Of a stretch of DNA of 64,000 bases, positions 59-19,554 are shown piece by piece. Both the position numbers and the translations under genes were made by a program. Source of the DNA: Pseudomonas sp. MWU16-30317 (GTDB taxonomy: Bacteria > Pseudomonadota > Gammaproteobacteria > Pseudomonadales > Pseudomonadaceae); the NCBI RefSeq assembly GCF_020515695.1, contig NZ_JAIWJA010000007.1, forward strand, positions 124,001 through 188,000, read 5' to 3'. The notes beneath the pieces were generated by a model, which saw only the letters and a list, made by a program, of their open reading frames with translations, made no database searches and had not been told where the DNA came from. Each line of letters opens with the position of its first letter. Within the stretch, counting starts at the first letter, position 1.

Positions 59-988
59 TCAAGGCCGATAGATGATCGCCGAGCCCCACGACAGACCGAC
101 ACCGAAGCCGCTCAGGGCCACGCGCTTCCAGCTGGAGTCAAGCACGTGCTTTTCCAGCAGCAGCGGTACGCTGGAGGACACCGTGTTGCCGGTTTCGAGC
201 ATGTCCTTGACGAACTTCTCCGGCGGCGCAGCTTCGAACCGGCGAGCCACGGCGTCGACGATCGCGGCGCTGCCCTGGTGGATACAGAAGGCGTCGATAT
301 CGTCAGCACTGAAACCCGACTCATCGAGCAATTCGTGCAAATGCGCCGGCACTTTGAGCAGGGCGAAGTTGAACACCTGACGACCGTTCATGAAGAACAC
401 GCCATCGCTGACCTTCAGGTGCGGCGCGCCGGAGCCGTCGGTGCCGAATTTGGCCTTGCCCAACTGCCAGGGAGCATCTTCGCCCATCCAGGTGGCCGTA
501 GCGGCATCGCCGAACAGCATGGTGGTATTGCGGTCTTCAGGGTCGACGATTTTCGAATACGGGTCGGCGGTGATCAGCAGGCCGTTCTTCAGGCCTGCGG
601 CCTCCATGAAGCCTTTCATCGCGTAGAGGCCGTAGACATAACCCGAGCAGCCCAGGGAGATGTCGAACGCGGCGACGTGGGTCGGCAAGCCAAGCTTGTC
701 CTGGACGATCGCGGCCGTGTGCGGCAGGCCTTCTTCGTCGCCGTTCTGAGTGACGACGATCAGCGCGTCGATGGACTCGCGCTTGAGTTGCGGGTTGTTC
801 GCGAACAGGGCGTTGACGGCCTCGACGCACAGGTCGGAGGTTTCTTGCGTGGCGTCCTTGCGTGGCAGGAACGCCGAACCGATCTTGCCCAGGATGAAGT
901 CTTCGTCCTTGGCAAATTTGGCACCCTGCGCGTAGTTATCGACGCCGGCCTTCGGCACGTAACTCGCTATGCTTTTTATGCCAATCAT
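59..988 (-). CDS. 3-oxoacyl-ACP synthase III (FabH-like), flagellin-glycan locus
   Basis: This 309-residue thiolase-fold protein has the full FabH catalytic triad: Cys114 in DISLGCSGY, His237 in CIHQGS and Asn268 in ETGNTVSSS. It should condense an acyl-CoA with malonyl-ACP or malonyl-CoA. Homologues of this type sit between the flagellin glycosyltransferase genes and fliC in other pseudomonads. There they are thought to supply an acyl group for an N-acylated amino sugar of the flagellin glycan, not housekeeping fatty acids. It lies 310 bp from the aminotransferase gene and probably has its own promoter. The substrate cannot be read from the sequence. The family call is secure; the role is inferred from context. 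Confidence 0.88.
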   Translation of the reverse strand: MIGIKSIASYVPKAGVDNYAQGAKFAKDEDFILGKIGSAFLPRKDATQETSDLCVEAVNALFANNPQLKRESIDALIVVTQNGDEEGLPHTAAIVQDKLGLPTHVAAFDISLGCSGYVYGLYAMKGFMEAAGLKNGLLITADPYSKIVDPEDRNTTMLFGDAATATWMGEDAPWQLGKAKFGTDGSGAPHLKVSDGVFFMNGRQVFNFALLKVPAHLHELLDESGFSADDIDAFCIHQGSAAIVDAVARRFEAAPPEKFVKDMLETGNTVSSSVPLLLEKHVLDSSWKRVALSGFGVGLSWGSAIIYRP

Positions 989-1021
989 TCTGGCTTCCCA
1001 ATAATAAACCGCTGAATATCA

Positions 1022-1042
1022 CCCCTCGGATGGATCGAGGGG
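1022..1042. terminator. Stem-loop after the fdtB-like gene
   Basis: A 7-bp inverted repeat (cccctcg / cgagggg) with a 7-nt loop lies in the gap between the aminotransferase (ending 1299) and the ketoacyl synthase (starting 988). It has no clear T-tract. It could attenuate read-through from the sugar operon into the ketoacyl synthase gene. Confidence 0.3.
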
Positions 1043-1168
1043 CCGACAGATACCGGCGCCGTGCGGCTCACAAGGGGCAGCAACCGACGGTGCCAAGGCG
1101 CGAAGGGTCGGCCATTCGGCCACGCAGCTACTTCAACGCCCACAAAAACATGACAATGGGATGCACTT

Positions 1169-1217
1169 CGTGACCCATAGGTCACGCCAATATAACGTCT
1201 GTGTCGTATTTTGTGAC
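1169..1217 (-). promoter_or_regulatory. Possible promoter with an 18-bp dyad upstream of the KAS III gene
   Basis: The 310-bp gap 989-1298 holds no gene. On the minus strand it has a -10-like TATATT (plus 1189-1194) about 17 bp downstream of a weak -35-like GTCACA (1212-1217). Just past the predicted start is a perfect palindrome, CGTGACC-CATA-GGTCACG (1169-1186). This arrangement fits a promoter with an operator overlapping the transcript start, but no named regulator is recognised. The promoter call rests on eye inspection only. Confidence 0.3.
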
Positions 1218-1298
1218 ATTTTGCACGAAGGTTTAATGCACGAGGAGCAATTGCAGGCGGATGCCACGGCGCGGCAAGGCGAAGCCCACGAGGGGCCC

Positions 1299-2426
1299 CT
1301 ATCGATCGTTCATGAAGCGATTCAGAGTATCGATCAGTCGCGCCTGCGCCGCGTCGCCCAGCGTGTGGTACAGCGGAATCGACAGAATCTGCTGGTTCTG
1401 CGCGGCCTCTTGCGCCCGCGCCGGTATCTTCAATTGGCGGTATGGCGGGTGCTCGGCAATGGTCAGCGGGTAGTGAATGTTGGTCTGGATGCCGTGGCCG
1501 GTCAGGTATTCCTTCAGAGCATCACGGTAGCGGCAAGTGACCACGAACAGATGCCAGACATGGCCCTCACGGTCCGTGGCCTTGGGCACGTTGATCAGCG
1601 GATTGCGGATCTGCGCGCTGAAACGTTCGGCAATGACGCGACGGCGCTCGGTGTCGGCGTCCAGCCGGGCCAGCTTGACCCGCAACATAGCCGCCTGGAT
1701 TTCATCCAGACGGCTGTTCACCCCCGCGTACTCATGCTGGTATTTGATCCGCGAGCCGTAGTTGCCCAACGCCCGCACCAGCGTCGCCAGTGCCGCGTCG
1801 CCGCACACCACAGCCCCTGCGTCGCCCAAGGCACCGAGGTTCTTGCCCGGATAGAAACTGAACGCCCCGGCGTCACCCCAACTGCCCGCCTTGCGCCCCT
1901 GCAAACTGGCACCGTGAGCCTGGGCGCAATCTTCCAGCACCAACAGGCCATGCTGACGGGCCAGCGCCATTATCTCGGGCATCGGCGCCAGTTGTCCGTA
2001 CAGATGCACCGGCACAATCAAGCGGGTCTTGCCGGTAATGGCCGCCGCCACTGCACCGACGTCCAGGTTGAAAGTGGCCAGATCGGTATCCACCAGTACC
2101 GGCGTCAGGCCGTTTTCGGCGATGGCGGCAATGGTGGCGATAAAGGTGTTGTGCTGCACGATCACCTCATCACCGTCGCGCAGCCTGCCCTGCTCTTTCC
2201 AGGCACGAATCACCAGCGTCAGGGCATCGAGACCGTTGGCGACCCCCACTGCGTGGCTCACGCCGCAATAACCGGAAAAGTCGGCCTCGAAGCCAGCCAG
2301 TTCCTCGCCCATCAAGTACCAACCCGAATCGATGACCCGCGCACAGGCCGCCTTCAACTCATCCGCGTATTCGTGATTGATGGCCTGCAGGTCAAGGAAG
2401 GGAATCGTCGTTGCCGTTGTCGTCAC
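1299..2426 (-). CDS. fdtB: FdtB/QdtB-type dTDP-3-oxo-sugar aminotransferase
   Basis: This 375-residue PLP-dependent sugar aminotransferase belongs to the DegT/DnrJ/EryC1/StrS family. The Schiff-base lysine is Lys195 in [12 protein letters not shown], and Asp166 in [10 protein letters not shown] contacts the pyridine nitrogen. Its start overlaps the stop of the FdtA-like gene by 4 bp. That pairing is the usual signature of dTDP-3-amino-3,6-dideoxyhexose (Fuc3N or Qui3N) synthesis, where FdtA/QdtA makes the 3-oxo sugar and this enzyme aminates C3 with glutamate. Whether the product is galacto or gluco cannot be told by eye. The dTDP-glucose supply genes rmlA and rmlB are not in the window. Confidence 0.85.
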
Positions 2427-2821
2427 AGGTTCACCATGCTTTGGAACGTTGCATAATCGCGCACATAGTCGGCTTCGTCATAGAGGCTATCGGCGAGCAC
2501 CATCAGCACACAATCGGGGGAAAAGTCATACATCACTCGCCACAGGAATGACTCGATCAACAAGCCTTGGCAAGGGTTATCAAGACGGAAGTCGATTTTC
2601 TCCTTGCCGTCATCGAGCAGGAAACGGCACGAGCCGCGCACCGCGACCGCGACCTGTTTCAAGGACTTGTGCGCATGATGGCCGCGCTCGACCCCTTCCC
2701 CCGTTTCGAACATGTAGTACACACGCTTGACCTGAAAAGGAATGTTCTTGCCTTCTTCCAGAGCGATCAACGAGCCGCGGTCGTCACCGTGGGTCTGCAA
2801 CTGCAAAAACTGAATATTCAT
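2423..2821 (-). CDS. fdtA: FdtA/QdtA-type TDP-4-oxo-6-deoxyhexose 3,4-ketoisomerase
   Basis: This 132-residue single-domain cupin of the WxcM-like sugar ketoisomerase family carries the histidine motif RGHHAHK (His48, His49, His51) used for proton transfer between C3 and C4. It converts dTDP-4-oxo-6-deoxyglucose to the 3-oxo isomer for the neighbouring aminotransferase. It overlaps both neighbours by 4 bp (GT61 gene upstream, aminotransferase downstream), so the three are translationally coupled. FdtA and QdtA differ in product stereochemistry and the sequence alone does not settle which this is. No FdtC/QdtC-type N-acetyltransferase follows. Confidence 0.87.
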
Positions 2822-4380
2822 CGAGAGTGTCCAGGACGGGAATCGACTTCACCGATTGTCAGCCATCGCACCACGGCCTCGGCATCGATCGAATAGCCTT
2901 TGTAGTAAAGCTCGCGAGAAGCCACCGTATTCGCCTGATAGCGGATGTAGTTCATGTCGACCCCGACAATGTCAGCCAGGTTGGAATAGCACGACAGCGC
3001 GCCGATCTCTTCAGCCATCCAGCACAGCGCCCTGGCGCCTGGCGAGGCAAAGATGATATTGGTCCACGCCGCGCCCGTTGGCCCGACGATGATATCGGCG
3101 TTGGCCATGATTGCCACTTGATGGTGGATATCCTGCTCTTCCATGTAGACGCACTCGAACCCCAGTGGCTCGAGACATGCCAGGATTTCAGCCTGGTTGT
3201 AAGGCCGCAGAAACCCCTTGCGCCCCAGAAACACTCGTTTGGGCAGCGCCGTCCGGTCAATCTCGGCCGCCAGCGACAAGCCTTTTTCACGCAAGAAGCC
3301 GATGGATTCAGGCCGGGAAAAATTGTAGTTGGGCTGGCAATGCGCCGAGCCTTTGTAATTGAAGATGCCGTTATTCGGCGCACTGATCATCAACAGGTCC
3401 CCGACGCAGTACGAAGCGACGCTCTTGAGCAGCACTAACGGACGGGTAATGCCCATGGCGTCCAACATGGCCTTGATCGCGGGAATGCTCTGGCTATGTT
3501 CGGAAATCAACAGCGGATAAGCGTCATATTCGCCGGGCAGCTCGCGCACGAATTGTAGCTGGCTGAGGATCTCCAGCACCCAATGGTAGTAGTTGGTCTC
3601 GGTACCGCCGCTTACCAGCACCCCGCGCTCCAGGTACTCCGGGGCCGTCCCCACTCGCGCCAAGGCGAAAGCGTCGCCATGGAAGACCAGATGCCCGGTG
3701 CTGTAGTCGGCGCTGTCGATGATCGCGGTGGTGACGCGCTCATTGATCAGGCGTCCCGCAGGGAGGATGACCGTGCGCGAAATAGAACGGACCTGCCCAT
3801 CGGCAAAACGATACAACGCCACTTCAGGCACGGTGATGGCGGTGGCCGGCACTTCTCGCCCGACGTCATGTGGCCCCTGCACGCTGCCCGCCTGGGCCTT
3901 GCGAAACACATGGACCTTGTTCGCCTCGGCCTCATCGAGCCATTGCAGGGCAAAGCGTTTGACGTCGCTGTTTGCAGCAAACATATGCGTGTACAGCAGA
4001 TCGGAGACCCACCCCGGACGTCGACACAGCAACACGTAGCCAAACTGCTCGAGACGCGAGCGCAGGCGCTGGAATAAACCTGGCTTGGTCTGGTGATGAA
4101 AGAAAACGCTGACTTTATCTGCGCTGATCGCCAGTTCATTGACCAGTTGCGGATAAATCTCCTGGTAGTAATCGCTGGCGATGATGATCTGATCAAACAC
4201 CAGCTCGCTCAGGCGTGCAGGCGCGTAAATGACTTTACCGAACAGCGCCTGCCCCTGTTTTTCACGGTTGTTATCCACAAACCCGATCACGTCGAGGCTG
4301 CCACGGCTGTTGCGATAGAAATTGACCCCGCCGGCGCCGGTGCCAAAGATCAACGTTCGGTTTTTTTTATTTGCCATCAC
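2818..4380 (-). CDS. GT61 (DUF563) glycosyltransferase with N-terminal Rossmann-like domain
   Basis: This 520-residue protein has two parts. Residues about 6-90 resemble a nucleotide- or CoA-binding Rossmann segment (IFGTGAGGVNFYRN, then GFVDNN, then IIIASDYY), often found at the front of surface-sugar enzymes. Residues about 240-500 carry the GT61 signature: SGGTETNYYHWVLEIL, RVFLGRKG and VGPTGAAWTNIIF. It has no signal peptide or membrane segment, so it should act in the cytoplasm, as flagellin glycosyltransferases do. It lies between the PhyH-like gene (6-bp gap) and the FdtA gene (4-bp overlap), suggesting it transfers the 3-amino sugar. That acceptor and donor assignment is inference. 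Confidence 0.78.
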   Translation of the reverse strand: MMANKKNRTLIFGTGAGGVNFYRNSRGSLDVIGFVDNNREKQGQALFGKVIYAPARLSELVFDQIIIASDYYQEIYPQLVNELAISADKVSVFFHHQTKPGLFQRLRSRLEQFGYVLLCRRPGWVSDLLYTHMFAANSDVKRFALQWLDEAEANKVHVFRKAQAGSVQGPHDVGREVPATAITVPEVALYRFADGQVRSISRTVILPAGRLINERVTTAIIDSADYSTGHLVFHGDAFALARVGTAPEYLERGVLVSGGTETNYYHWVLEILSQLQFVRELPGEYDAYPLLISEHSQSIPAIKAMLDAMGITRPLVLLKSVASYCVGDLLMISAPNNGIFNYKGSAHCQPNYNFSRPESIGFLREKGLSLAAEIDRTALPKRVFLGRKGFLRPYNQAEILACLEPLGFECVYMEEQDIHHQVAIMANADIIVGPTGAAWTNIIFASPGARALCWMAEEIGALSCYSNLADIVGVDMNYIRYQANTVASRELYYKGYSIDAEAVVRWLTIGEVDSRPGHSR

Positions 4381-4386
4381 GCGCGC

Positions 4387-5316
4387 TCAACCCTTGTTGA
4401 TAATGTTGCCACGGATCTGCGCCACGCCTTTTTCATCCAGGTCGCGTCGTGTGCGGATCGGTGTCAGCTCGCCCTTGATCAGGCAATTGATGTCATCAAT
4501 AGCGGTCCTTTTGCTATTCCCGTTGGACTTGCCCAGCAAGTAGCGCAGCGACAGGCGAAACCGTTCCGACTCATGGGCCACCGGCCGAGTACCGTGCAGG
4601 ACGCAATTGTGCCAAAGCCCGACATAGCCGGGGCCGCCAATCAGCTTCTGGTCGCGGCATTGCAAGCTGTTGCCCTGCTCATCGCTGTACAGCCAGCGGT
4701 CGCCTTCCAGGTGTTGCAGCCGATGGGGGAACAGCGTGGCGCCTAGCCGGTGACTGCCGGGCATCAGGTGCAGAGGCGAATCATGTTCGGTGACGTCATG
4801 CAGATAGACATACAGCGTCATGAAGGTGGAAGGGTCCAGTTCCACTCGCCCTTGGGGCCAATCGATGATGTCCTGGTGGAAGTCGATGCCGCGAAAATAA
4901 GTGATGTCACGCATGGGCTTCTTGATATAAGGGCCCAGATTGGCCACGTTGACGTCACGGATTTTCTCCCGTATCCAGTCCGGCAGCCAGGCATCGGGTA
5001 CCCCGCACACGGCTTTCTTGACCACGACTTCGTAGTCATCGCCCAGCAGTTCATCGAGTACGGCGCTCAGGCGTGGATCCTGCTCGATGAATTGCAGCTG
5101 CGACTCGAACTGATTGAGGAAGTTGAACGTCCTGGTAGGGTTGGCGTTGAAATGGTTTTCTTGCGCCAGGTACTCGGCCTCGTCCATGAACAGGCTGGCG
5201 TCGAAAACCCGGGCCTTGATCATTGCCTGGTAAAGGGCCTGGGTGCGAGGCACGTCGAGGATTTCCCCGAACACGTGTGCGCCCTGCTCCATCAGGTTGT
5301 CGACGCAGGTTTGCAT
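4387..5316 (-). CDS. Phytanoyl-CoA dioxygenase (PhyH) family protein
   Basis: This 309-residue Fe(II)/2-oxoglutarate oxygenase-like protein has the HxD iron ligands in DFHQDIIDW (His147, Asp149), the distal His in CVLHGTRP (about residue 241) and an Arg a few residues later (ERFRLSLRYLL) that should bind 2-oxoglutarate. MPGSHR is also typical. It is therefore likely to be catalytically intact. It sits inside the flagellin-glycan operon between pseH and the GT61 gene, so it probably hydroxylates or oxidises a sugar or acyl substituent of the glycan. The substrate is unknown and that role is inferred from position. Confidence 0.8.
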   Translation of the reverse strand: MQTCVDNLMEQGAHVFGEILDVPRTQALYQAMIKARVFDASLFMDEAEYLAQENHFNANPTRTFNFLNQFESQLQFIEQDPRLSAVLDELLGDDYEVVVKKAVCGVPDAWLPDWIREKIRDVNVANLGPYIKKPMRDITYFRGIDFHQDIIDWPQGRVELDPSTFMTLYVYLHDVTEHDSPLHLMPGSHRLGATLFPHRLQHLEGDRWLYSDEQGNSLQCRDQKLIGGPGYVGLWHNCVLHGTRPVAHESERFRLSLRYLLGKSNGNSKRTAIDDINCLIKGELTPIRTRRDLDEKGVAQIRGNIINKG

Positions 5317-5448
5317 GCTCTCTATCGCCTACCGTTGCTGTTGATCTCGGTTATCTTATCGGCTTGCCAGGCGCGACATTGATAGCCACCGTGAAAATTT
5401 CCCGAGTGCAGGCGCGGGGTCGGCGAATCGCCGGAAACCGCAGTCGAC

Positions 5449-6009
5449 TCATGCCGACCTCTTGCCTTGCAAACGGTGAATCAGAGGCTCGAGCGACGGC
5501 CGCCTGGCTTGCCACTCATCCCGAGTGATACCCAGCATCACGACGTCAAGGCGCTTGCCGTCCTTGAGGATATTCTGGCGGCGGACCCCCTCCCGTACAA
5601 AGCCGAACTTCTCATGCATGCCGATGACCGCCGTATTGCTGTGCAGCACTTCGCAATTGAGTTTTTCGAGGCCCGCGCCATCGAAAGCATGATCGAGCAG
5701 CCAGAATTCCACGAGGCTGCCAAAGCCCTTGCCCTGCACCTGCGGGTCCAGGTAGAACGCCCAGTCGGCGGTCTTTTGCGTGGCACTGATAGCGTTCAGC
5801 GAGACGATGCCGATGGGCTGCTCGTCGAGCATGACCACAAACACCGACTGGCGCGCGTTGCCCCTCAATGAGTCGAGCCAGGCCTGATGTTCGACCTCGC
5901 CGATTTCATGGGAGGTGTACATGTACCTGCGCACGTCCGGCTGATTCCTCAACTGCCGCACACGCGCCTGAACGTCGGCGTCAGCGTCCAGCAAGGGTAA
6001 AAACTGCAT
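5449..6009 (-). CDS. pseH: PseH, UDP-4-amino-sugar N-acetyltransferase
   Basis: This 186-residue GNAT acetyltransferase has the acetyl-CoA pyrophosphate loop QGKGFGS near residue 95 and the common GNAT C-terminal segment HEKFGFVREG. In pseudaminic acid synthesis it acetylates the C4 amine made by PseC, using acetyl-CoA, before PseG removes UDP. It is 28 bp downstream of pseI in the same operon. Its presence completes the six-enzyme pathway in this window. It could also acetylate the 3-amino sugar of the neighbouring module, but nothing in the sequence shows that. Confidence 0.87.
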   Translation of the reverse strand: MQFLPLLDADADVQARVRQLRNQPDVRRYMYTSHEIGEVEHQAWLDSLRGNARQSVFVVMLDEQPIGIVSLNAISATQKTADWAFYLDPQVQGKGFGSLVEFWLLDHAFDGAGLEKLNCEVLHSNTAVIGMHEKFGFVREGVRRQNILKDGKRLDVVMLGITRDEWQARRPSLEPLIHRLQGKRSA

Positions 6010-6037
6010 GGGCTATCTCCCTGTATGGATGAGGCGG

Positions 6038-7090
6038 TCAGTCCACCATCGGCCAATCCAGCGCCGTACCGCGCTTGAGCGAATGGCGGGCGCGACGCCC
6101 CATCAGGCTGTCGAAGTGCTTGGGCGGCAGGCCAAGGCCCGGTCGAATGGCCCGCAGATTGTCGGCACTGAACGCCTCGCCAGCGGCCATATCGCGCACC
6201 ACATAGAGCGAACGGCGGTAAACCAGAGACTTCTGCTCGGCAGTCGTCGGGCCGTAATGCACCCGGCCCAACGCCTGCCACGCGCGCTCGGTTTCGACCA
6301 CCAGGCTGTGCATTTCGGCCGGTTCCAGCGAGAAGCTGGCATCGACGCCGCCGGCTGCTCGGCTCAGGGTGAAGTGTTTTTCTACCACCGTCGCGCCCAA
6401 CGCTACCGCAGCAACGGCCGCGCCCACGCCCATGGTGTGATCCGACAATCCGACCTCGCACCCAAACAGCTCGCGCAGATGGGGAATCGTGCGCAAGTGG
6501 GTATTGAGTGGCTGAGCCGGATAGGTGCTGGTGCACTTGAGCAGCAACAGATCACGACAGCCCGCTGCCCGCGCCGCACGCACGCTTTCATCCAGCTCGG
6601 CAACGCTGGCCATGCCGGTGGAGATGATCATCGGCTTGCCGGTCGCGGCCACCCTCCGGATCAGTGGCAAGTCGGTATTCTCGAAGCTGGCGATCTTGTA
6701 GGCAGGCACCTCGAGGCTTTCGAGGAAATCCACGGCGGTTTCATCGAACGGCGAGGAAAACGCCAACATGCCGTGGGACTTCGCGCGCGCGAAGATCGGC
6801 CCGTGCCATTCCCACGGGGTATGCGCCTGCTGGTACAGCGCGTACAGCGAGGTATCCGCCCACAGGCTGTCCGGGTCGCTGATGCGAAACTCACCTTCGT
6901 CCATGTCCAGGGTCATGGTATCGGCGGTGTAGGTCTGCAATTTGAGCGCATGGGCGCCCGCATGCGCGGCGGCATCGACAATCGCCAGCGCGGTGTCCAG
7001 CGACTGGTTATGGTTGCCGCTCATTTCGGCGATGATAAAAGGCGCTGACGCCAGGCCGATATCGCGCGAGCCGATCTTGAAACTGGTCAT
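6038..7090 (-). CDS. pseI: PseI, pseudaminic acid synthase
   Basis: This 350-residue protein is of the NeuB family. The N-terminal TIM barrel begins near residue 8 with the conserved FIIAEMSGNHNQSLD and binds phosphoenolpyruvate and the 6-deoxy-diacetamido-altrose substrate. The C-terminal antifreeze-like (SAF) domain covers about 285-350 (RRSLYVVRDMAAGE to the end). It condenses PEP with the PseG product to form pseudaminic acid. Flanking pseG and pseH separate it from sialic or legionaminic acid synthases. Confidence 0.94.
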   Translation of the reverse strand: MTSFKIGSRDIGLASAPFIIAEMSGNHNQSLDTALAIVDAAAHAGAHALKLQTYTADTMTLDMDEGEFRISDPDSLWADTSLYALYQQAHTPWEWHGPIFARAKSHGMLAFSSPFDETAVDFLESLEVPAYKIASFENTDLPLIRRVAATGKPMIISTGMASVAELDESVRAARAAGCRDLLLLKCTSTYPAQPLNTHLRTIPHLRELFGCEVGLSDHTMGVGAAVAAVALGATVVEKHFTLSRAAGGVDASFSLEPAEMHSLVVETERAWQALGRVHYGPTTAEQKSLVYRRSLYVVRDMAAGEAFSADNLRAIRPGLGLPPKHFDSLMGRRARHSLKRGTALDWPMVD

Positions 7091-7158
7091 GGCCGCTCCT
7101 TGAATACACAGGTTTTAACTATAAGCCTTGAGGGTAAATGGTTACCCGACCGAGGCGT

Positions 7159-8244
7159 TCAACTGCCAGGCAGCCCGCCCAAGGCGGCGGCGACCCGCCT
7201 TGCGCCTCGACCGTCGACCAGTTGCCGCGAAAGCCGGGCATAGCGCTGGCGCGCTTCAACGTTAGCCAGCAGTTCTCCAATCGCCTCGGCCAATGCCGCT
7301 ACCGACACCTGCGCGCAGGGCCCCAGATAACGATGCACGCCGGCCGCGGCAAGCGCTTGGGCGTTGTCTTGCTGATTGGCGGCGACGGCCATGCACAGGG
7401 TCGGCAAGCCCAGCGCGGCGCGCTCCCAAGTGGTCCCGCCCGCCGCACCGATGAACAGATCGGCAGCGGCCATCAACTGGCCGAAATCGGCGCTGTAGGC
7501 CAGCAACTGCCACTGCGGCCGTTGCTCGACCAAGGCCTGCAACTCAGCCCAATGGGGGTTGCTCAGTCCGGCCACAAATGTCACCTGCGTCACCTGCTGC
7601 CCTGCGAGCCCCATCAACGCCTGAAGCGCCTTGAGCGTCTGGCCGGCGGCGTCCATACCGCCGAAGTTGACCACCACCCGCTCCACCACTTGGCGCACAG
7701 GCCGCGCATCACGTTCGAACTCCTCTCGCAAAAGGGCATACTCCGGCCCCAGCAACGTGCGACAGCGCCCTTCGAGCCAGGGCGCATAACGCTGCGTGCT
7801 GGCGTTGAAGTTCTGGTCCAGCAGCAGGTCGACCTCGTGCGCGCGATTGGCAAGGTCGTCGATTGCCATGATCTGCGCCGCCCACGGCCGCGCCGCCACT
7901 TCCCAGTGCCGATCGAGGCCGTAATGGTCGACCACGATCCAGTCGAAACACGTGCCCGGCGGCAGCTGCCCGGCCAGCGCGGCGATGTCCGGCTGCCAAG
8001 GCAGCAAGGCTTCGATGTTCGCCGCGTTTCGCGCTTGAGCTCCATCGTCAGGCGCCTCCACCGCCAACCGGTAAACCGGCCAGCCCTGCGCGGCGATCTG
8101 CGCGCTCAGGTCACCGGCCAGGCGGCGGCAGGCAAAGCTCACCTGCGCGCCCAAGCCTTGCAGGGCCTTGGCCAGTGTCAGGCAGCGCGCCACATGGCCA
8201 CTGCCGATGAGCGTCGAGGCGTCGACCCGCATCAACACGTTCAC
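7159..8244 (-). CDS. pseG: PseG, UDP-diacetamido-trideoxy-altrose hydrolase
   Basis: This 361-residue nucleotide-sugar hydrolase of the MurG-like GT-B fold removes UDP before PseI acts. Visible motifs are IGSGHVARCLTLA at the N-terminus, VVVNFGGMDAAG in the middle and IGAAGGTTWERAALG, the UDP-binding region. I chose the GTG at 8244, which overlaps the pseF stop as GTGA and gives the family N-terminus NVLMRVDAS. A longer reading frame to 8646 would run deep into pseF and is not real. An ATG at 8232 is the alternative start. Confidence 0.9.
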   Translation of the reverse strand: MNVLMRVDASTLIGSGHVARCLTLAKALQGLGAQVSFACRRLAGDLSAQIAAQGWPVYRLAVEAPDDGAQARNAANIEALLPWQPDIAALAGQLPPGTCFDWIVVDHYGLDRHWEVAARPWAAQIMAIDDLANRAHEVDLLLDQNFNASTQRYAPWLEGRCRTLLGPEYALLREEFERDARPVRQVVERVVVNFGGMDAAGQTLKALQALMGLAGQQVTQVTFVAGLSNPHWAELQALVEQRPQWQLLAYSADFGQLMAAADLFIGAAGGTTWERAALGLPTLCMAVAANQQDNAQALAAAGVHRYLGPCAQVSVAALAEAIGELLANVEARQRYARLSRQLVDGRGARRVAAALGGLPGS

Positions 8245-8947
8245 GGCTGCAGTTCGCCATTGGCCTGCAGGGCCGCGTAGAGATACTCGGCACGGGTCCA
8301 GTCTTCGACGGTATCGATATCCTGGACGAAATGCCGGGGCAAAATCAGTGGCAGGCTGAGGTCGGAGAACACCACATCGCCACGCAGCCAGGCCTCGCTG
8401 CGGCCCCAGTAGAACTGCCCGGCGTCCTGATAGGCCGGCGCCAGATCCTGCGAACGCACCTGACCAAACTCGGGGTACAACGCGGTCAACCGGCCAAGCG
8501 GATCGAGGGTCAAGGCGCGCTGCACCGGGAACGGGAAAGTGCACACCGAAAACACATAGGACGCCCGGGCATTGGCCTGCAACAGCGCCAGCCCGTCGCG
8601 CAGAAACCGGCCCTGCAACAACGGCGCGGTGGCATAGATGCAACACGCCAGATCGTGATCATGGCCGCTGTCGCGCAGTGCCCGCAGGGCGTGTTCGATG
8701 ACTGCCGAGGTACCGGTGAAATGATCGGCCAGCGCCGCCGGACGCCTGAACGGCACCTCGGCCCCCCAGGCGCGGGCAACCTCGGCGATTTCGGCGTCAT
8801 CGGTACTGACCACCACCTGGTCGAACAGGCCGCTGGCCCTTGCCGTACGAATCGAATGGGCGATCATCGGTTCGCCATTGAACAGCTTGATGTTCTTGCG
8901 CGGGATACGCTGACTACCACCGCGCGCCGGAATGATCGCCACCGTGC

Positions 8948-8951
<4 letters not shown>
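8241..8951 (-). CDS. pseF: PseF, pseudaminic acid cytidylyltransferase
   Basis: This 236-residue CMP-sugar synthetase has the N-terminal CTP-binding signature AIIPARGGSQRIPRKNIK, followed by FNGEPMIAHSI. It activates pseudaminic acid as CMP-Pse, the donor for flagellin glycosylation. It overlaps pseC by 4 bp and pseG by about 4 bp, so pseB-C-F-G are translationally coupled. Its length fits the family. Confidence 0.93.
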
Positions 8952-14066
<5,115 letters not shown>

Positions 14067-14235
14067 GACCTTTCCTTAGACGGGCAGACGGCTGTGACGG
14101 GACAAAGAGGATTCGACGACTGCCAGTGATACGTCGCGGTCGGGAACCACTGCATCGCAAAGAGCGGATTTATGACGCTATCGGGGGGATTTGCATGAAG
14201 CATGCCAGCCACGGCGACGCGTGGCCTGCATGCCG

Positions 14236-14254
14236 CAAGGGGCTTGCCCCCTTA
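14236..14254. terminator. Hairpin downstream of the giant glycosyltransferase gene
   Basis: The repeat aaggggcttgcccccttac forms a 6-bp stem (14237-14242 with 14248-14253) in the 203-bp gap between the two large transferase genes. No T-tract follows. It resembles the short GC-rich hairpins common in pseudomonad intergenic DNA. The rest of the gap shows nothing recognisable. Confidence 0.35.
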
Positions 14255-14269
14255 CGGGCCGTCTAGCGG

Positions 14270-17200
14270 TCAGTCACCCAGCCATGCCGACGCCCAATGC
14301 TGGACGTTATCGGCGCGCAGCATGTAGTCGCGCATCACCGTGCGCTTGAGCTCGTCGCCCATGCGGTAGCTGGCCTCGGGATCGGCGAGGTGCATGCGAA
14401 TCGCCTCCAGCCATTCTGCGGTGGAGTTGGTCAGCACTCGCGTGCACGGCAGATAACCGCCATAGGCCGCGGTGTTGCTGCAGATCACCGGGTAGCCACA
14501 GGCGCCGTATTCCAGCAGGCGCAAGTTGCTCTTGCAGTCGTTGAACGGGTGAAACTCCAGCGGTGCCAGGGCCAGGTCCAGGTTGAGACTGGCGAGTTTG
14601 GCCGGATAGACGCTCAGACCGATCACGCCATGGAATTCATGCACGTAGGGACGCAGGATATCCGGGCACATGCCAAAGAATACCCATTCGACTTCGTCCG
14701 CCAGCAGACGCACGACATCGGCAATCAACTCCAGGTCGCCGCGGTGGCTGGTGCCGCCGCCCCAACCCACCCGAGGCTTGCGCGAAGTGCGCCGCTTGCT
14801 GTGCAGATTGCTCCACAGCTCGGTCGCCAACATGTTCGGCACCACGCGGATATCCTGATGCATCCCCGCCAGCGCGTCGGCCAGTGGCTCGGTCGACACC
14901 ACGACCCGGTCACACAGGGCGATCACTTTCTGGATGCTGTCGGCCACCGTGGGCGGCAGGTCTCGCGCATGGTCGTTCTTTTTCGGAACGTTGGTGACCA
15001 GGTCATCGAGTTCGAAGATCAACCGGCTGTTGAAGTAGCGCTTGAGATCGACAGCCTCGCGAATGGCGTTCTCGAAATACCGGCCCTGCAGGATCACCAC
15101 ATCCGGACGCGACCGTTCGATTTGCACCAGCGTCGGGGTTTCATAGGCTACGCGGCTGACGATACGCCCTGCCGCTTCCAATTCCTCGAGCGGCTGCACC
15201 ACCCGGTAGTGGGCGACGGCCGTGGTGTTTATCGGTAGCCCCAGCACGGTCGGCAATGGCCGATGGGTGAAGGGGTACCAGTCGTTACGTTTGCCGGGTT
15301 CAAGGACGAAACTGGCGCCGTCCAGGCTCAGGCTGGGGTTGTAGGCCGGGTCCCGGGCGATAGACGGCAGCCAGCGGTCAAGCAGGTGGCTACCGGCCAA
15401 TTGCTGAGCCTCGGCCGTGTCGTTGAACGCCTTGCGGGCGCCGATCGCCAGCTGCGCATAAGGCGTCCAGACGGTCAGCAGGCCCTGCTCGGCGATGCGC
15501 AGGCACAGGTCCACGTCGTGCCCCAGACTGGCGAAATGGGTGGTATTGAACCCATCCAGCTCATCGAATATCGATTTGCTCACCATCAGGCAGTCGATGC
15601 CCACAGCGCTGTAGTTCTGGGTGATCTGCAAACGCTGCATGTACCCCGGCGCGTCGGCCGCAACCGAGAAAAACGGCGTGCCCCAGCCGCCTTTCATCCC
15701 CAGCACCAGGCCCGCCTGTTCAATGGCGCCATCCGGGCGAACCAGGCGGGGGCCGACAATGGCCACCTCCGGGCGCTGCGCCAGTTGCACCATCTGCTCA
15801 AGCCAGTCCTGCTGGGTCGCCACCAGGTACGGGCTGTAAAACAACACGAACTCACCACGGGCCTGCGCTGCGCCCGCATTGAAGGCTGCCGCAGGGGTCA
15901 GGGTCGATGCACAATCGAGCACGCGCAGCTTGTCGCCACCCAATTGCGCCATGCCCGCAAACCAGGCCCGAGCATCGGCCGAGACGCTGGCGTTATTGAC
16001 CAGCACCACCTCGAAGTGGCCGTAACCGGTATTGCCGAGCAGGCATTCGACACAGCGCTGCACCAACGCGAGCTGATCCTTGCTGACGATCACGATCGAC
16101 ACCAACGGGCGGGTCGGATGCAGGTATTCGATATGGGTAAGCAACACGCCGGCCCCCGACTGCAGCCGATAATCGATGCCCAGGCGCTGCAGGTGGGCTT
16201 CGACCACCGGGGCGTTCTGCTCGACTACCTGCGGCACGGCCAGCCACTGCGCCAGGGAATATTGCGACTCTACCAGCACCTCGGCGACATGCCCGATCGC
16301 CAGGCTGCCGGACGACTCGAACAAGCGCCACAACACGTCGATGCCCGCCAGTTCGCCAAAGCGCGACTGCAGACCACCGCACGCCAGCACGGCCTGGCGC
16401 TGAAACACCAGGTTGCGCCCGACGTAGGGATAGCTGCGCAACATGTCCAGGTTGAAGTCGGGCTTGAACACCGGGTCCCGGGATTCGCCATCGCGCAGCG
16501 CACCTTCATCGCTATAGAGGCACTGCAAGTCAGCACTTTGGCTGATGCGTTGAGCGAGCAGAAACAACGCCGGCGCGGTCAAGCGATCGCCGCTGCGCAG
16601 CAGGTAGATCCAGTCGGCGCCGTCCAGCTGCGGCAGCAATTGGTTGATCTGGGCGTTGACGTCGTCCTGCAACGGCAGGGTAAAGACTTTTTCCTCCAAC
16701 TGCGGCGCGACACAGTCGGCGCTCAGCACCAGAATCAGCTCAGGCGGGTAATGTTGTTCGGCCAGGCTGCGCAGGCTGATCTCGACCCCGGCACTGTTAC
16801 CCAGGGAGTTGACGATCACCGGCACGATGCGCGGGCGCTGCGGCCAACTGGCGACCACATCCGGCAACAGCTCCAGGTGCGCCGGGCTCAGTGTCCTGCA
16901 GCCGAGCCAATCCTGGTAGAGCTCGGCAAAACTTTCGCTGGCCAAGCCGACATGGAAGGCCTGTTGCCCGACTTTGCGGATCAGCGCATGGTTGAGGCCC
17001 AACTCCTCCCATTCACGGGGCGACTGCTCGGCCTGTTCCAGCGGCACATAGCGCACATAGCCTTTTTGCGGCGGCTCGCTGCTGCGCTCTTTGAGCATCT
17101 GACCCAACCAGCCACGCTCGCGCTCCATTCCATCAATGATCGATTGGCGCCGACTCAAGCGCTGCGGGTGCAGGCGTTCAACCGTGAGGATATCGTTGAT

Positions 17201-17839
17201 ATACACCATGTTGCCGCGGCCCAGCAGGCAAGCGAACAACGCCAGATCCAGCAATGCCTCGAAACAATGCCCTGGCTGGGTGAGCGCGGGCAGCAATGCC
17301 TGCAAATCGACACGACGGAACAACGCGCTGCTGAAGCAACCGAGAAAGTTGGCCGGATACGTATCGAGCATGCCGAGCATGTCCGATCCCAGGAACAGTG
17401 CGGTAGTCGGAGCAATGCCCACATTGGCCATGCGTGCGGGCAGGCGGATCTCATCGCGATCGCAGAAATAACGCTGCGCGAGCACCAGGTTGACGTCGGT
17501 GTTGTCCAGCATGGCGGCAGCCTGACGGCGCACGCACTCGGTGTACAGACGGTCGTCATCGCAGAGGAACTTGACCAGCTCGCCCTGCGCGTCATCCAGC
17601 CCGCGCTGCAGATTGCCCGCCAGGCCCAGGGGTTGCGGGTTGCGGTGGTAGCGGATCGGCACCTGGCTGTTGAGCCCTTGAGCTTCGCAAGCGGCCTGGA
17701 TTTCACTGCCGCGCGAATCGTCGCAGACGATCACTTCCAGATGGGGGTAGGTCTGCGCCAGCGCATCCTGCAACGCCATCGCGAAGAAATCCGGATTGGA
17801 AGCGGGAATGACGATGCTGATCAGCGGGACTGAAGACAC
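14270..17839 (-). CDS. Giant three-module flagellin glycosyltransferase (Fgt1-like)
   Basis: About 1189 residues with four parts: an N-terminal GT2 domain (about 3-220: LISIVIPASN, VIVCDD, FLCDDDRLY); a second GT2-like segment with FKPDFNLDML near 456; a third GT2 domain (about 580-800) where the expected DSD is replaced by SPY in GEFVLFYSPYLVA (about 667); and a C-terminal GT4-like domain (about 900-1189: RVGWGGGTSHRGD, LRLLEYGACGYPVICS). It is the first gene after flgL, as Fgt1 is in P. syringae. I prefer the GTG at 17839, preceded by GAGAG at 8 nt and giving SSVPLISIVIP; a TTG 36 bp upstream is possible. Role in flagellin glycosylation is inferred from architecture and context. Confidence 0.78.
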   Translation of the reverse strand: MSSVPLISIVIPASNPDFFAMALQDALAQTYPHLEVIVCDDSRGSEIQAACEAQGLNSQVPIRYHRNPQPLGLAGNLQRGLDDAQGELVKFLCDDDRLYTECVRRQAAAMLDNTDVNLVLAQRYFCDRDEIRLPARMANVGIAPTTALFLGSDMLGMLDTYPANFLGCFSSALFRRVDLQALLPALTQPGHCFEALLDLALFACLLGRGNMVYINDILTVERLHPQRLSRRQSIIDGMERERGWLGQMLKERSSEPPQKGYVRYVPLEQAEQSPREWEELGLNHALIRKVGQQAFHVGLASESFAELYQDWLGCRTLSPAHLELLPDVVASWPQRPRIVPVIVNSLGNSAGVEISLRSLAEQHYPPELILVLSADCVAPQLEEKVFTLPLQDDVNAQINQLLPQLDGADWIYLLRSGDRLTAPALFLLAQRISQSADLQCLYSDEGALRDGESRDPVFKPDFNLDMLRSYPYVGRNLVFQRQAVLACGGLQSRFGELAGIDVLWRLFESSGSLAIGHVAEVLVESQYSLAQWLAVPQVVEQNAPVVEAHLQRLGIDYRLQSGAGVLLTHIEYLHPTRPLVSIVIVSKDQLALVQRCVECLLGNTGYGHFEVVLVNNASVSADARAWFAGMAQLGGDKLRVLDCASTLTPAAAFNAGAAQARGEFVLFYSPYLVATQQDWLEQMVQLAQRPEVAIVGPRLVRPDGAIEQAGLVLGMKGGWGTPFFSVAADAPGYMQRLQITQNYSAVGIDCLMVSKSIFDELDGFNTTHFASLGHDVDLCLRIAEQGLLTVWTPYAQLAIGARKAFNDTAEAQQLAGSHLLDRWLPSIARDPAYNPSLSLDGASFVLEPGKRNDWYPFTHRPLPTVLGLPINTTAVAHYRVVQPLEELEAAGRIVSRVAYETPTLVQIERSRPDVVILQGRYFENAIREAVDLKRYFNSRLIFELDDLVTNVPKKNDHARDLPPTVADSIQKVIALCDRVVVSTEPLADALAGMHQDIRVVPNMLATELWSNLHSKRRTSRKPRVGWGGGTSHRGDLELIADVVRLLADEVEWVFFGMCPDILRPYVHEFHGVIGLSVYPAKLASLNLDLALAPLEFHPFNDCKSNLRLLEYGACGYPVICSNTAAYGGYLPCTRVLTNSTAEWLEAIRMHLADPEASYRMGDELKRTVMRDYMLRADNVQHWASAWLGD

Positions 17840-17906
17840 TATGAACGCTCTCACGCGGCAGGCGTCCGGCGACAACGTGACAAGCGCGGACGCTACAGAA
17901 GGGATG

Positions 17907-17949: not shown

Positions 17950-19554
17950 TTAGAGCTTGTTGAACAGGCCAAGCTGCGAGATACGGCTGAACGCCAGTTG
18001 CGCCGCCGAGAGCATGGTCTGCTGCAAGGTCAAGCGGGTCATGACTTCGGCCGGATCGGAATTGCGGATGGCCGACTGGTTGGTGTCGTTGTTGGTGGTC
18101 AGCGTGGTGTTGGTGGTCGATTGTGCATCCACCGCCTGGCCCCGAGCACCAATCGAGCTGAGCGCCGTACTGACCTGATCGCTCCCGGAAGCCAGGTTGC
18201 CGATGGCCGATTGCAGCTGAGCGTTGAGCTTCTGGGTCGCCACGGCGTCGCCGTCAGTCGGCGTCATCAGCGCAGTTCTCAGATCGTTCAAGGTGTTGAG
18301 AATGTTCTGATTGGTATGGGTATTGGACTGCACCGTGAACTGATCGCCGGTGGCCGGCGTACCGCTGATACTGAACTTGACGCCGGCGAGGGTCACCGAG
18401 CCACCCGTGAGTGTCTGGCTGTCGATCGGCTGACTGTTGGCAGTCAAAGGCGACGCATACAACGCCACGGTAGTCGTCGGCGTGGTGCCGGTGACCTTCA
18501 CCACCGCACCGCTCGCAGGGAACTTGCTGGTGTAGGCAACCGCATCGGCCGCCTGGGTGGCCGCGGACGCAGTCGAATCGGAAGCGCCAGTGATGGCGGA
18601 GGTAATCTGCGACGTTGAGGTGTTGGTGCTGACCCGTGCGGTGTTGAAGGTGTCCGGCGTGGCCGCAAAAGTGAAGCTGCGACCGGTCAACACAGTCGAG
18701 GCGTCATCACCGGTGGCAAGGTTGACGTTGAGGGTCAGGTCGACACCGCGAAAACTGACGGTCTGATCCGCTGCGGTACTGGCCGACACCACGCCATTGG
18801 CCGTCAGTTCCGAGGTCCTGTCTGTACCGGTGTTGTCGGTGATTTTCAGCTGCGTGGCGCTGGTGTAGCTGATGGTATAGGGCGCGCCGCTGGTGAACGA
18901 AGAGCTGTAGGTAGCGCTGTTCGAGACGATACCGCCCGAGAGCGTGACCTTGCCGTCACTGACGCTCGGCGTGGTGCTGGTACGGGTGGTATTGGTCGCC
19001 TGCTCGAAAGCATCCCAACCGGTGGTGTTGGTGGCGATCGACAAGCCTTGACCGATAGCGACGTTCGTCGAGGTCTGATCGCCGTTATAGCTGTACGAAC
19101 CATCGGCGTTCACGGTGTAGGGCGGCGTCGATGATTTGGAACCCGAGAACAGATAGTTACCGCTTGCATCCTGGCTGTTCATCAAGCCAAGCACTTGAGA
19201 CTGGATCTGCGACAGCTCCTCGGCGTTGGCCTGGCGGTCAGCGTCGGTATAGGTGGCGTTGCTGGCCGATAGCGCCAGTTCGCGGGCGCGCTGCAGTGCA
19301 TTGGTAATACTGGTGAGCGCAGTTTCCGAAGCCGTCATGGTGGTCGTGGCGGCGGTCATGTTGCTCTTGTACTGCGTCAGCATGGAGCTCTGCTGGCCCA
19401 GTTGCAGCAGGCGCGCGGCACCGACCGGATCATCGGCGGCGGTATTGACCTTGATGCCGCTGCTGGCCTCTTCGCCGGATGCAACCACGTTGCCGTAGGT
19501 GCGGGAATAGTTGGCAGCGCTGGTTTCGTAGTATTGACTGGTGGAAATACGCAT
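17950..19554 (-). CDS. flgL: FlgL, hook-filament junction protein 3
   Basis: This 534-residue flagellin-like junction protein forms the layer that connects FlgK to the filament. The N-terminal helical D0/D1 region (about 1-190) has MRISTSQYYETS and NTAADDPVGAARL. The C-terminal helices (about 430-534) end in TMLSAAQLAFSRISQLGLFNKL, the flagellin-family C-terminus. The centre is Ser/Thr/Ala-rich. It is longer than the enterobacterial protein (a little over 300 residues) because of this central insertion. It is last in flgFGHIJKL, 13 bp after flgK. Confidence 0.95.
   Translation of the reverse strand: MRISTSQYYETSAANYSRTYGNVVASGEEASSGIKVNTAADDPVGAARLLQLGQQSSMLTQYKSNMTAATTTMTASETALTSITNALQRARELALSASNATYTDADRQANAEELSQIQSQVLGLMNSQDASGNYLFSGSKSSTPPYTVNADGSYSYNGDQTSTNVAIGQGLSIATNTTGWDAFEQATNTTRTSTTPSVSDGKVTLSGGIVSNSATYSSSFTSGAPYTISYTSATQLKITDNTGTDRTSELTANGVVSASTAADQTVSFRGVDLTLNVNLATGDDASTVLTGRSFTFAATPDTFNTARVSTNTSTSQITSAITGASDSTASAATQAADAVAYTSKFPASGAVVKVTGTTPTTTVALYASPLTANSQPIDSQTLTGGSVTLAGVKFSISGTPATGDQFTVQSNTHTNQNILNTLNDLRTALMTPTDGDAVATQKLNAQLQSAIGNLASGSDQVSTALSSIGARGQAVDAQSTTNTTLTTNNDTNQSAIRNSDPAEVMTRLTLQQTMLSAAQLAFSRISQLGLFNKL

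Follow-up and report, generated by a model that had tools for sequence, protein, structure and literature searches.

A predicted flagellin O-glycosylation island of Pseudomonas sp. MWU16-30317 in which a pseudaminic acid pathway is joined by a rare cassette for a probable 3-amino sugar

Introduction

Mosaic flagellin-glycosylation islands are in print for Aeromonas, the Enterobacteriaceae and Geobacillus and, as far as the accessible parts of these papers go, those of Geobacillus include pse together with fdt genes (PMC7874193, PMC4875605, PMC5109656). In Aeromonas, Maf-1 reportedly transfers pseudaminic acid (Pse) to flagellin (PMC7874193, PMC4065374, PMC3426422). The present analysis concerns an island between flgL and fliC of Pseudomonas sp. 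MWU16-30317, contained in a window of 64,000 nucleotides (C29:124001-188000, contig NZ_JAIWJA010000007.1) within a 6.58-Mb genome of 31 contigs. Recognition by phages and by the immune systems of plants and animals is affected by flagellin glycans. A literature search, in which subscription journals were thinly covered, found no papers on Pse-Maf islands in Pseudomonas, which is a weak negative.

We consider it fairly probable that the variable fliC-flgL site carries here an island for O-glycosylation of flagellin, with both Pse and a 3-amino sugar made by a small cassette. Judged by comparison across the genus, the unusual part of the island is this fdtB-fdtA-GT61-PhyH cassette beside pseH; the kind of island is itself known and polymorphic.

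Pseudaminic Acid Pathway and Its Probable Link to Flagellin

Enzymes were identified by profile searches against Pfam and NCBIfam with their curated cut-offs, and the matches of the island proteins lie far above chance. All six Pse proteins (PseB, PseC, PseF, PseG, PseI and PseH) exceed the NCBIfam cut-offs, so that the pathway to CMP-pseudaminic acid is complete. The searches confirmed the gene content listed in a preliminary description of this DNA: besides these six, FdtA, an FdtB-like protein, a glycosyltransferase of family GT61, a PhyH-type oxygenase, a FabH-like ketoacyl synthase III (KAS III) and two giant GT2 proteins (GTa and GTb). The island genes form a one-strand run on the minus strand; starting at the flgL end, the order is GTa, GTb, pseB, pseC, pseF, pseG, pseI, pseH, PhyH, GT61, fdtA, fdtB and KAS III (window positions 17875 to 59). 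Bits or scores are followed below by the cut-off; the first rows lie outside the window.

C29:121323-122174: fliC
C29:122668-123957: Maf-like (MptE-like) gene, 429 residues, between KAS III and fliC
59..988, minus strand: KAS III, FabH-like, 309 residues; two Pfam domains, 79/27 and 75/24
1299..2426, minus strand: fdtB-like DegT/DnrJ aminotransferase, 375 residues; 339/20
2423..2821, minus strand: FdtA, sugar 3,4-ketoisomerase, 132 residues; PF05523, 165/23
2818..4380, minus strand: GT61 glycosyltransferase, 520 residues; PF04577, 67/27
4387..5316, minus strand: PhyH-type Fe(II)/2-oxoglutarate (2OG) oxygenase, 309 residues; Pfam, 33/22
5449..6009, minus strand: pseH, GNAT N-acetyltransferase; TIGR03585, NCBIfam, 141/93
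6038..7090, minus strand: pseI, pseudaminic acid synthase; NCBIfam, 499/340
7159..8244, minus strand: pseG, UDP-sugar hydrolase; NCBIfam, 286/154; start fixed via the overlap with pseF
8241..8951, minus strand: pseF, CMP-pseudaminic acid synthetase; NCBIfam, 319/206
8948..10114, minus strand: pseC, aminotransferase; NCBIfam, 568/424
10111..11112, minus strand: pseB, inverting 4,6-dehydratase; NCBIfam, 566/408
11139..14066, minus strand: GTb, giant GT2 protein, 975 residues; TIGR04440 over cut-off, and GT2
14270..17875, minus strand: GTa, giant GT2 protein, up to 1201 residues; two GT2 stretches and a C-terminal GT1-like match below cut-off
17950..19554, minus strand: flgL, right boundary of the island; profile search

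The left boundary is formed by the Maf-like gene and fliC (C29:121323-123957), followed by flaG and fliD; beyond flgL lie flgK, flgJ and flgI. The fliC gene, expected near the left edge, was found about 1.8 kb outside the window with the Maf-like gene in between.

The Maf-like protein matches PF01973 (MptE-like) with 113 bits against a cut-off of 34.6, and its gene adjoins fliC; a search of solved structures gave two MptE-type sequences only. For comparison, KAS III loci were collected from the 98 of 119 genus genomes that hold the gene. G103 was dropped because its copy is near a contig end, which left 96 loci and the home locus, 97 in all. The stretches span at most 20 kb, some are ended by contig edges and six hold no fliC; their genes come from a simple open reading frame (ORF) finder, and clusters were named after representatives. 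Of the 97 loci, 39 hold Maf together with pseI, three Maf alone, one pseI alone and 54 neither (Fisher p 2e-22, a value overstated because the loci are related by descent). Because of this co-occurrence, it appears that Pse is very probably put on flagellin. The Ser/Thr fraction of the flagellin middle region does not separate the locus classes: it is 0.242 in 38 pse-type loci, 0.260 in 25 with the giants only and 0.228 in 29 with neither, where the flagellins are longer.

In the proposed mechanism, PseB, PseC, PseH, PseG, PseI and PseF would make CMP-pseudaminic acid, the Maf-like protein would transfer Pse to flagellin in the cytosol, and GTa, GTb and GT61 may extend or decorate the glycan. 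The earlier proposal of a flagellin island with Pse on flagellin is supported, and the Maf-like gene beside fliC strengthens it.

Judged by length, 31 of 40 sampled PseG proteins end in a PseH-like domain, which PseG of the home locus lacks. The long form measures 455-501 residues (e.g., in loci L020, L016 and L041), and in one representative its extra part matches PseH below the cut-off, at 35 vs. 93 bits. The short form, of 362 residues or fewer, occurs in nine loci including home, in L028 possibly through a frameshift. A stand-alone PseH was sought in 17 genomes. It was found over the cut-off in all 11 with an unfused PseG and in none of the three with a fused PseG-PseH (three chosen out of 31); genomes G071, G351 and G361, whose PseG was not classed, each have a stand-alone PseH too. 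The unfused state of G336 and of P. fuscovaginae (G398) was read from loci L108 and L131. Since the home PseG is unfused and the fusion pattern is of this kind, PseH can be accounted for as an enzyme of the Pse route, which it most simply completes. The island would then hold no acyltransferase for the 3-amino sugar.

An FdhC-like acyltransferase acting on the 3-amino sugar was considered as another identity for PseH and seems less likely, given the PseG fusion pattern and the weak similarity to FdhC (E 0.0018 in a solved-structure search, vs. 1.2e-9 for the PseH structure 4xpk). In the same search spermidine acetyltransferases slightly outscore the PseH structure (best 6.9e-10), so solved structures alone cannot name the protein; the NCBIfam model does.

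Islands of the Same Site across the Genus

The genes pseI, pseF and pseC occur in 40 of the 97 loci, 33 of which also hold pseG and pseB. CDP-glucose genes are present in 36 of the 40. In L020 the glucose-1-phosphate cytidylyltransferase and the CDP-glucose 4,6-dehydratase score over their cut-offs; the module also holds methyltransferases and an epimerase, as judged by eye, and a further DegT aminotransferase is found in ten of the 36 loci. Because 36 of 40 carry this module, two nucleotide-sugar routes are the rule for the sampled pse-type islands, contrary to the earlier statement that such islands usually carry one amino-sugar route. The pse loci lacking it are home, L032, L033 and L077; L032 and L033 carry other genes there. 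Home is the only sampled pse locus with fdtA, GT61 and PhyH, although only two of the 40, home and L077, reach flgL, and a cassette near flgL could be missed elsewhere. GTb was called in 59 of the 97 loci and GTa in at least 44, as many stretches stop before GTa.

The home KAS III keeps the motifs GCSG (Cys114), HQG (His237) and GNTV (Asn268), of which the named residues are presumably catalytic. Its relatives in the other 97 of the 98 genomes are 79-94% identical. Among the 97 loci, KAS III adjoins fliC (50 loci) or maf (41) on one side and pseI (39), flgL (30) or GTb (12) on the other, and only at home does fdtB directly follow it. The 30 loci with KAS III beside flgL and the 30 without GTa, GTb or pseI overlap in 29. 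Since the gene belongs to the genus core and lies directly beside flgL in 30 loci, it is not a marker of an acylated sugar, as which the preliminary description had taken it; KAS III as the mark of a special acyl-sugar island was rejected in view of its presence in 98 of 119 genomes. Going by this distribution, KAS III is part of the core of the flagellar site and not of the cassette. It adjoins fliC or maf in 91 of the 97 loci, even in 30 without a called gene before flgL.

The Cassette and Its Predicted Product

In the ORF list, 4-base overlaps join fdtB, fdtA and GT61, and 6 bases separate PhyH from GT61; because of these overlaps and this gap the four are read as one unit. The GC fraction is 0.54-0.58 in fdtA, GT61 and PhyH, vs. 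0.60-0.68 in the pse genes, and 0.62 in fdtB.

FdtA reaches 140 bits to the isomerase 2pa7, which we take to be FdtA of Aneurinibacillus, vs. 95-99 bits to QdtA. Of two positions that decide between galacto and gluco products, only one matches 2pa7 in the alignment. The FdtB-like protein reaches no NCBIfam cut-off, and its nearest solved relatives are 7n63 and 5u1z, both named 'putative aminotransferase', followed by QdtB 3frk. A test for the pathway to dTDP-Fuc3NAc (the N-acetylated 3-amino-3,6-dideoxygalactose, Fuc3N) found FdtA and FdtB present, the latter by its nearest solved relatives only. RmlB, the supplier of dTDP-4-keto-6-deoxyglucose, is encoded elsewhere in the same genome (C24:466912; 506 bits, cut-off 365). 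RmlB, FdtA and the FdtB-like protein would thus make a dTDP-3-amino-3,6-dideoxyhexose, more likely Fuc3N than its gluco counterpart Qui3N, and the second route of the preliminary description is supported. GT61, which often travels with fdt genes, is the likely transferase of this sugar. The first 60 residues of GT61 hold a glycine-rich, Rossmann-like motif kept in ten aligned relatives, and GT61 may be a two-domain protein.

No N-acyl- or N-formyltransferase was found among the island genes besides PseH, the sole GNAT; FdtC and other acyltransferases were not sought genome-wide. An ankyrin-type formyltransferase, which we assume to be QdtF-like, lies beside the cassette in five of 20 related loci (L112-L115 and L123). 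The L113 protein has no match in the home genome at E<=1e-20; matches were found in five of eight searched genomes, and none in home, G336 and G071. The G080 copy lies about 34 kb from GT61 and has an internal stop. The 'acylated' sugar proposed earlier lost its support here, as the one GNAT is explained by the unfused PseG and the formyltransferase has no match.

Residues His147, Asp149, His241, Arg254 and Arg258 of PhyH are invariant in 20 aligned sequences and presumably include the ligands of the HxD...H facial triad. The AlphaFold model has a pLDDT of 86, and the solved structures most like it are Fe/2OG oxygenases with varied substrates, including KanJ and AviO1, with TM-scores of about 0.4-0.6 and root-mean-square deviations of 7-18 Å, so that the likeness holds at fold level only. 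KanJ and AviO1 act on sugar-bearing antibiotics. Hydroxylation by PhyH is plausible; as the weakest step of the mechanism, PhyH would probably act on the 3-amino sugar or a neighbouring sugar. Both the acylation and the hydroxylation of the preliminary description remain proposals.

Distribution and Origin of the Cassette

In a related genome, locus L108 (CAJCIO010000039.1, 'Gammaproteobacteria bacterium isolate BOG_genome_mining.2') holds the whole island in the same order with 88-100% protein identity. The genes fdtA, GT61 and PhyH have no match in the other 96 KAS III loci, within stretches of up to 20 kb. Weak matches there are an fdtB-like gene in L033 (30%, opposite strand) and a pseH-like gene in L011 (29%). 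GT61 has a match in seven of 398 genus genomes, home included; so far, two of these copies have been placed at the flagellar site. In G336 it occupies the same contig position as in L108; in G071 and G068 it is on another contig than KAS III, and in G080 more than 300 kb apart from it.

Relatives of PhyH were found at 20 named loci. The ten named as Pseudomonas (L109, L110, L112-L118 and L123) all hold fdtA, and nine have an fdtB match; the 10-kb stretches examined show no home-like fliC, flgL, maf or KAS III. In the PhyH tree, home and L108 fall among these non-flagellar Pseudomonas sequences, with node support there of 0.25-0.98. A class-wide PhyH search returned the home genome only (one of 369 at E<=1e-25). 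It is parsimonious to assume that the cassette entered the flagellar site in an ancestor of home and L108; fdtB-fdtA-GT61-PhyH would have moved in from a non-flagellar Pseudomonas locus and would replace the CDP-glucose module typical of pse-type islands.

Other gene sets accompany the cassette elsewhere. Five of the 20 loci (L112, L113, L116, L117 and L118) hold an adenylylsulfate (APS)-kinase-like gene and a set of the pyruvate phosphate dikinase/phosphoenolpyruvate (PPDK/PEP) type beside it, which we take to resemble the Campylobacter phosphoramidate genes Cj1415-Cj1418. Four of them also hold peptidase-C26 and nucleotidyltransferase genes, L112 ending before these, and a CDP-glycerol-transferase-like gene is present in these phosphoramidate-like loci. 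At about 461 kb on contig 27 of the home genome (L136 13068-14708) lies a polysaccharide-like locus whose CDP-glycerol-transferase-like and APS-kinase-like genes show 31-33% identity to their L113 counterparts; rfbF/rfbG-like genes and dehydratase-like matches are also present there. In L119 (7918-20313, Cellvibrionaceae), a PhyH relative (63%) and a flagellin gene are neighbours. Sulfotransferase, TylF-type, LicD, CDP-glycerol-transferase-like and GT2 genes accompany them, and this region is perhaps another flagellin-modification island.

Alternative Explanations

Several observations weigh against a flagellin glycan of Pse and a cassette-made 3-amino sugar. The Maf-like protein is short (429 residues), and its match to the PseD model is partial, with 44.6 bits of a 670-bit cut-off. 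The solved relatives do not distinguish the FdtB-like aminotransferase from Qui3N-type enzymes. In P. fuscovaginae the relative of PseH (69%), the only PseH over the cut-off in that genome, adjoins fdtB with no other home-like pse gene within 20 kb, and PseH may serve the 3-amino sugar as well. The cassette of other Pseudomonas is not accompanied by flagellar genes, and at home too the sugar could end up in another surface polymer. Finally, PhyH relatives lie near pse-like genes in distant bacteria, and PhyH may act on Pse instead.

The last point leads to an explanation that we find unlikely but worth some weight, namely that PhyH belongs to the Pse route and gives a hydroxylated nonulosonic acid, the 3-amino sugar being a separate residue. 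PhyH adjoins pseH at home, and outside Pseudomonas (L119-L122 and L124-L127, the unassigned gammaproteobacteria L108 and L111 being left out) six of eight PhyH loci hold a pse-like gene and L119 holds fliC. However, several of these pse-like matches are only 25-35% identical, and the linkage rests on 20 loci without a background control. The Pseudomonas-named PhyH loci, moreover, associate with fdtA and fdtB as described above, while pseI, pseG, pseF and pseB are found in none of them.

It is rather improbable, in our view, that the fdt cassette makes a sugar for lipopolysaccharide (LPS) or another surface polymer and was inserted here by chance, so that only the pse part modifies flagellin. 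The non-flagellar setting of the other Pseudomonas cassettes, the phosphoramidate-like phosphoglycan genes beside five of the 20 and the polysaccharide-like locus on contig 27 would fit it. Against it, the cassette sits inside the one-strand flgL-fliC run of an island that has no usual second-sugar module, L108 has it in the same position, and no Pfam match of the Wzx/Wzy/WaaL type or to a flippase, polymerase or ABC exporter was found among the island genes.

It is very doubtful that the 3-amino sugar receives an acyl chain by way of KAS III, a role that VioS may have in P. syringae. In its favour, the home enzyme keeps its catalytic motifs, and the viosamine island of P. syringae, with its 3-hydroxybutyryl-bearing sugar, includes the KAS III gene vioS (PMC3927599). 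Against it, the gene occurs in 98 of 119 genus genomes and adjoins flgL in 30 of the 97 loci, PseH is the only GNAT, and the scanned island genes include no acp, reductase or LbH acetyltransferase, the gaps holding no acp-like small ORF as judged by eye.

Returning to the preferred model of Pse with a cassette-made 3-amino sugar, a wider proposal can be put forward only tentatively. The PhyH family may be an oxygenase for bacterial surface amino sugars or nonulosonic acids. In Gamma- and Alphaproteobacteria it would be recurrently tied to genes for Pse, flagellin or Fdt enzymes, and here it might yield a flagellin glycan of Pse and a hydroxylated 3-amino-3,6-dideoxyhexose. Our literature search, many of its sources being available in part, found no such combination on flagellin.

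Comparison with Known Systems

The region beside fliC can be viewed as a site of cassette exchange. KAS III is its conserved element; the Maf-Pse unit and the giant transferases are optional, and the modules for a second sugar can be swapped. Such a view should make the type of glycan predictable from genomes and the role of each module testable. The home cassette is rare; the kind of island is not.

As far as the accessible part of the report goes, the Group II polar-flagellin islands of Aeromonas are alike in that a variable block, with genes for glycosyltransferases and other biosynthetic enzymes, splits the pse genes, Maf is encoded near flagellin, and Pse is the linking sugar of the Aeromonas heteroglycan (PMC7874193). 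The luxC/luxE/acp set described there was not found in the home locus, which has instead two giant GT2 proteins, an Fdt pathway, GT61 and PhyH, at the fliC-flgL site.

In Geobacillus, the portion of the paper at hand describes Pse genes in types II-IV, FdtA/FdtB without FdtC in strain PSS1 and FdtB/FdtC in two type II (pse-bearing) strains; that host is Gram-positive, and no GT61/PhyH cassette was noticed in that portion (PMC5109656).

In P. syringae, according to the available text, fgt1/fgt2 lie upstream of fliC, the position taken here by GTa/GTb, and the viosamine island likewise combines a dTDP-amino sugar with KAS III; its product is a 4-amino sugar, for which VioA/VioB are responsible together with acp and a reductase (PMC3927599). 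By contrast, the home sugar would be a 3-amino one made by FdtA and the FdtB-like protein, next to a complete Pse route and a Maf-like protein, and the set VioA/VioB/acp/VioR was not found in the scanned island genes. Fgt1 and Fgt2 are giant proteins too.

The closest parallel within the genus is the CDP-glucose module (rfbF/rfbG, methyltransferases and an epimerase) of pse-type islands, likewise a second nucleotide-sugar route beside fliC. That module lies after GTb on the flgL side, whereas the dTDP route of the home locus is placed between KAS III and the pse genes.

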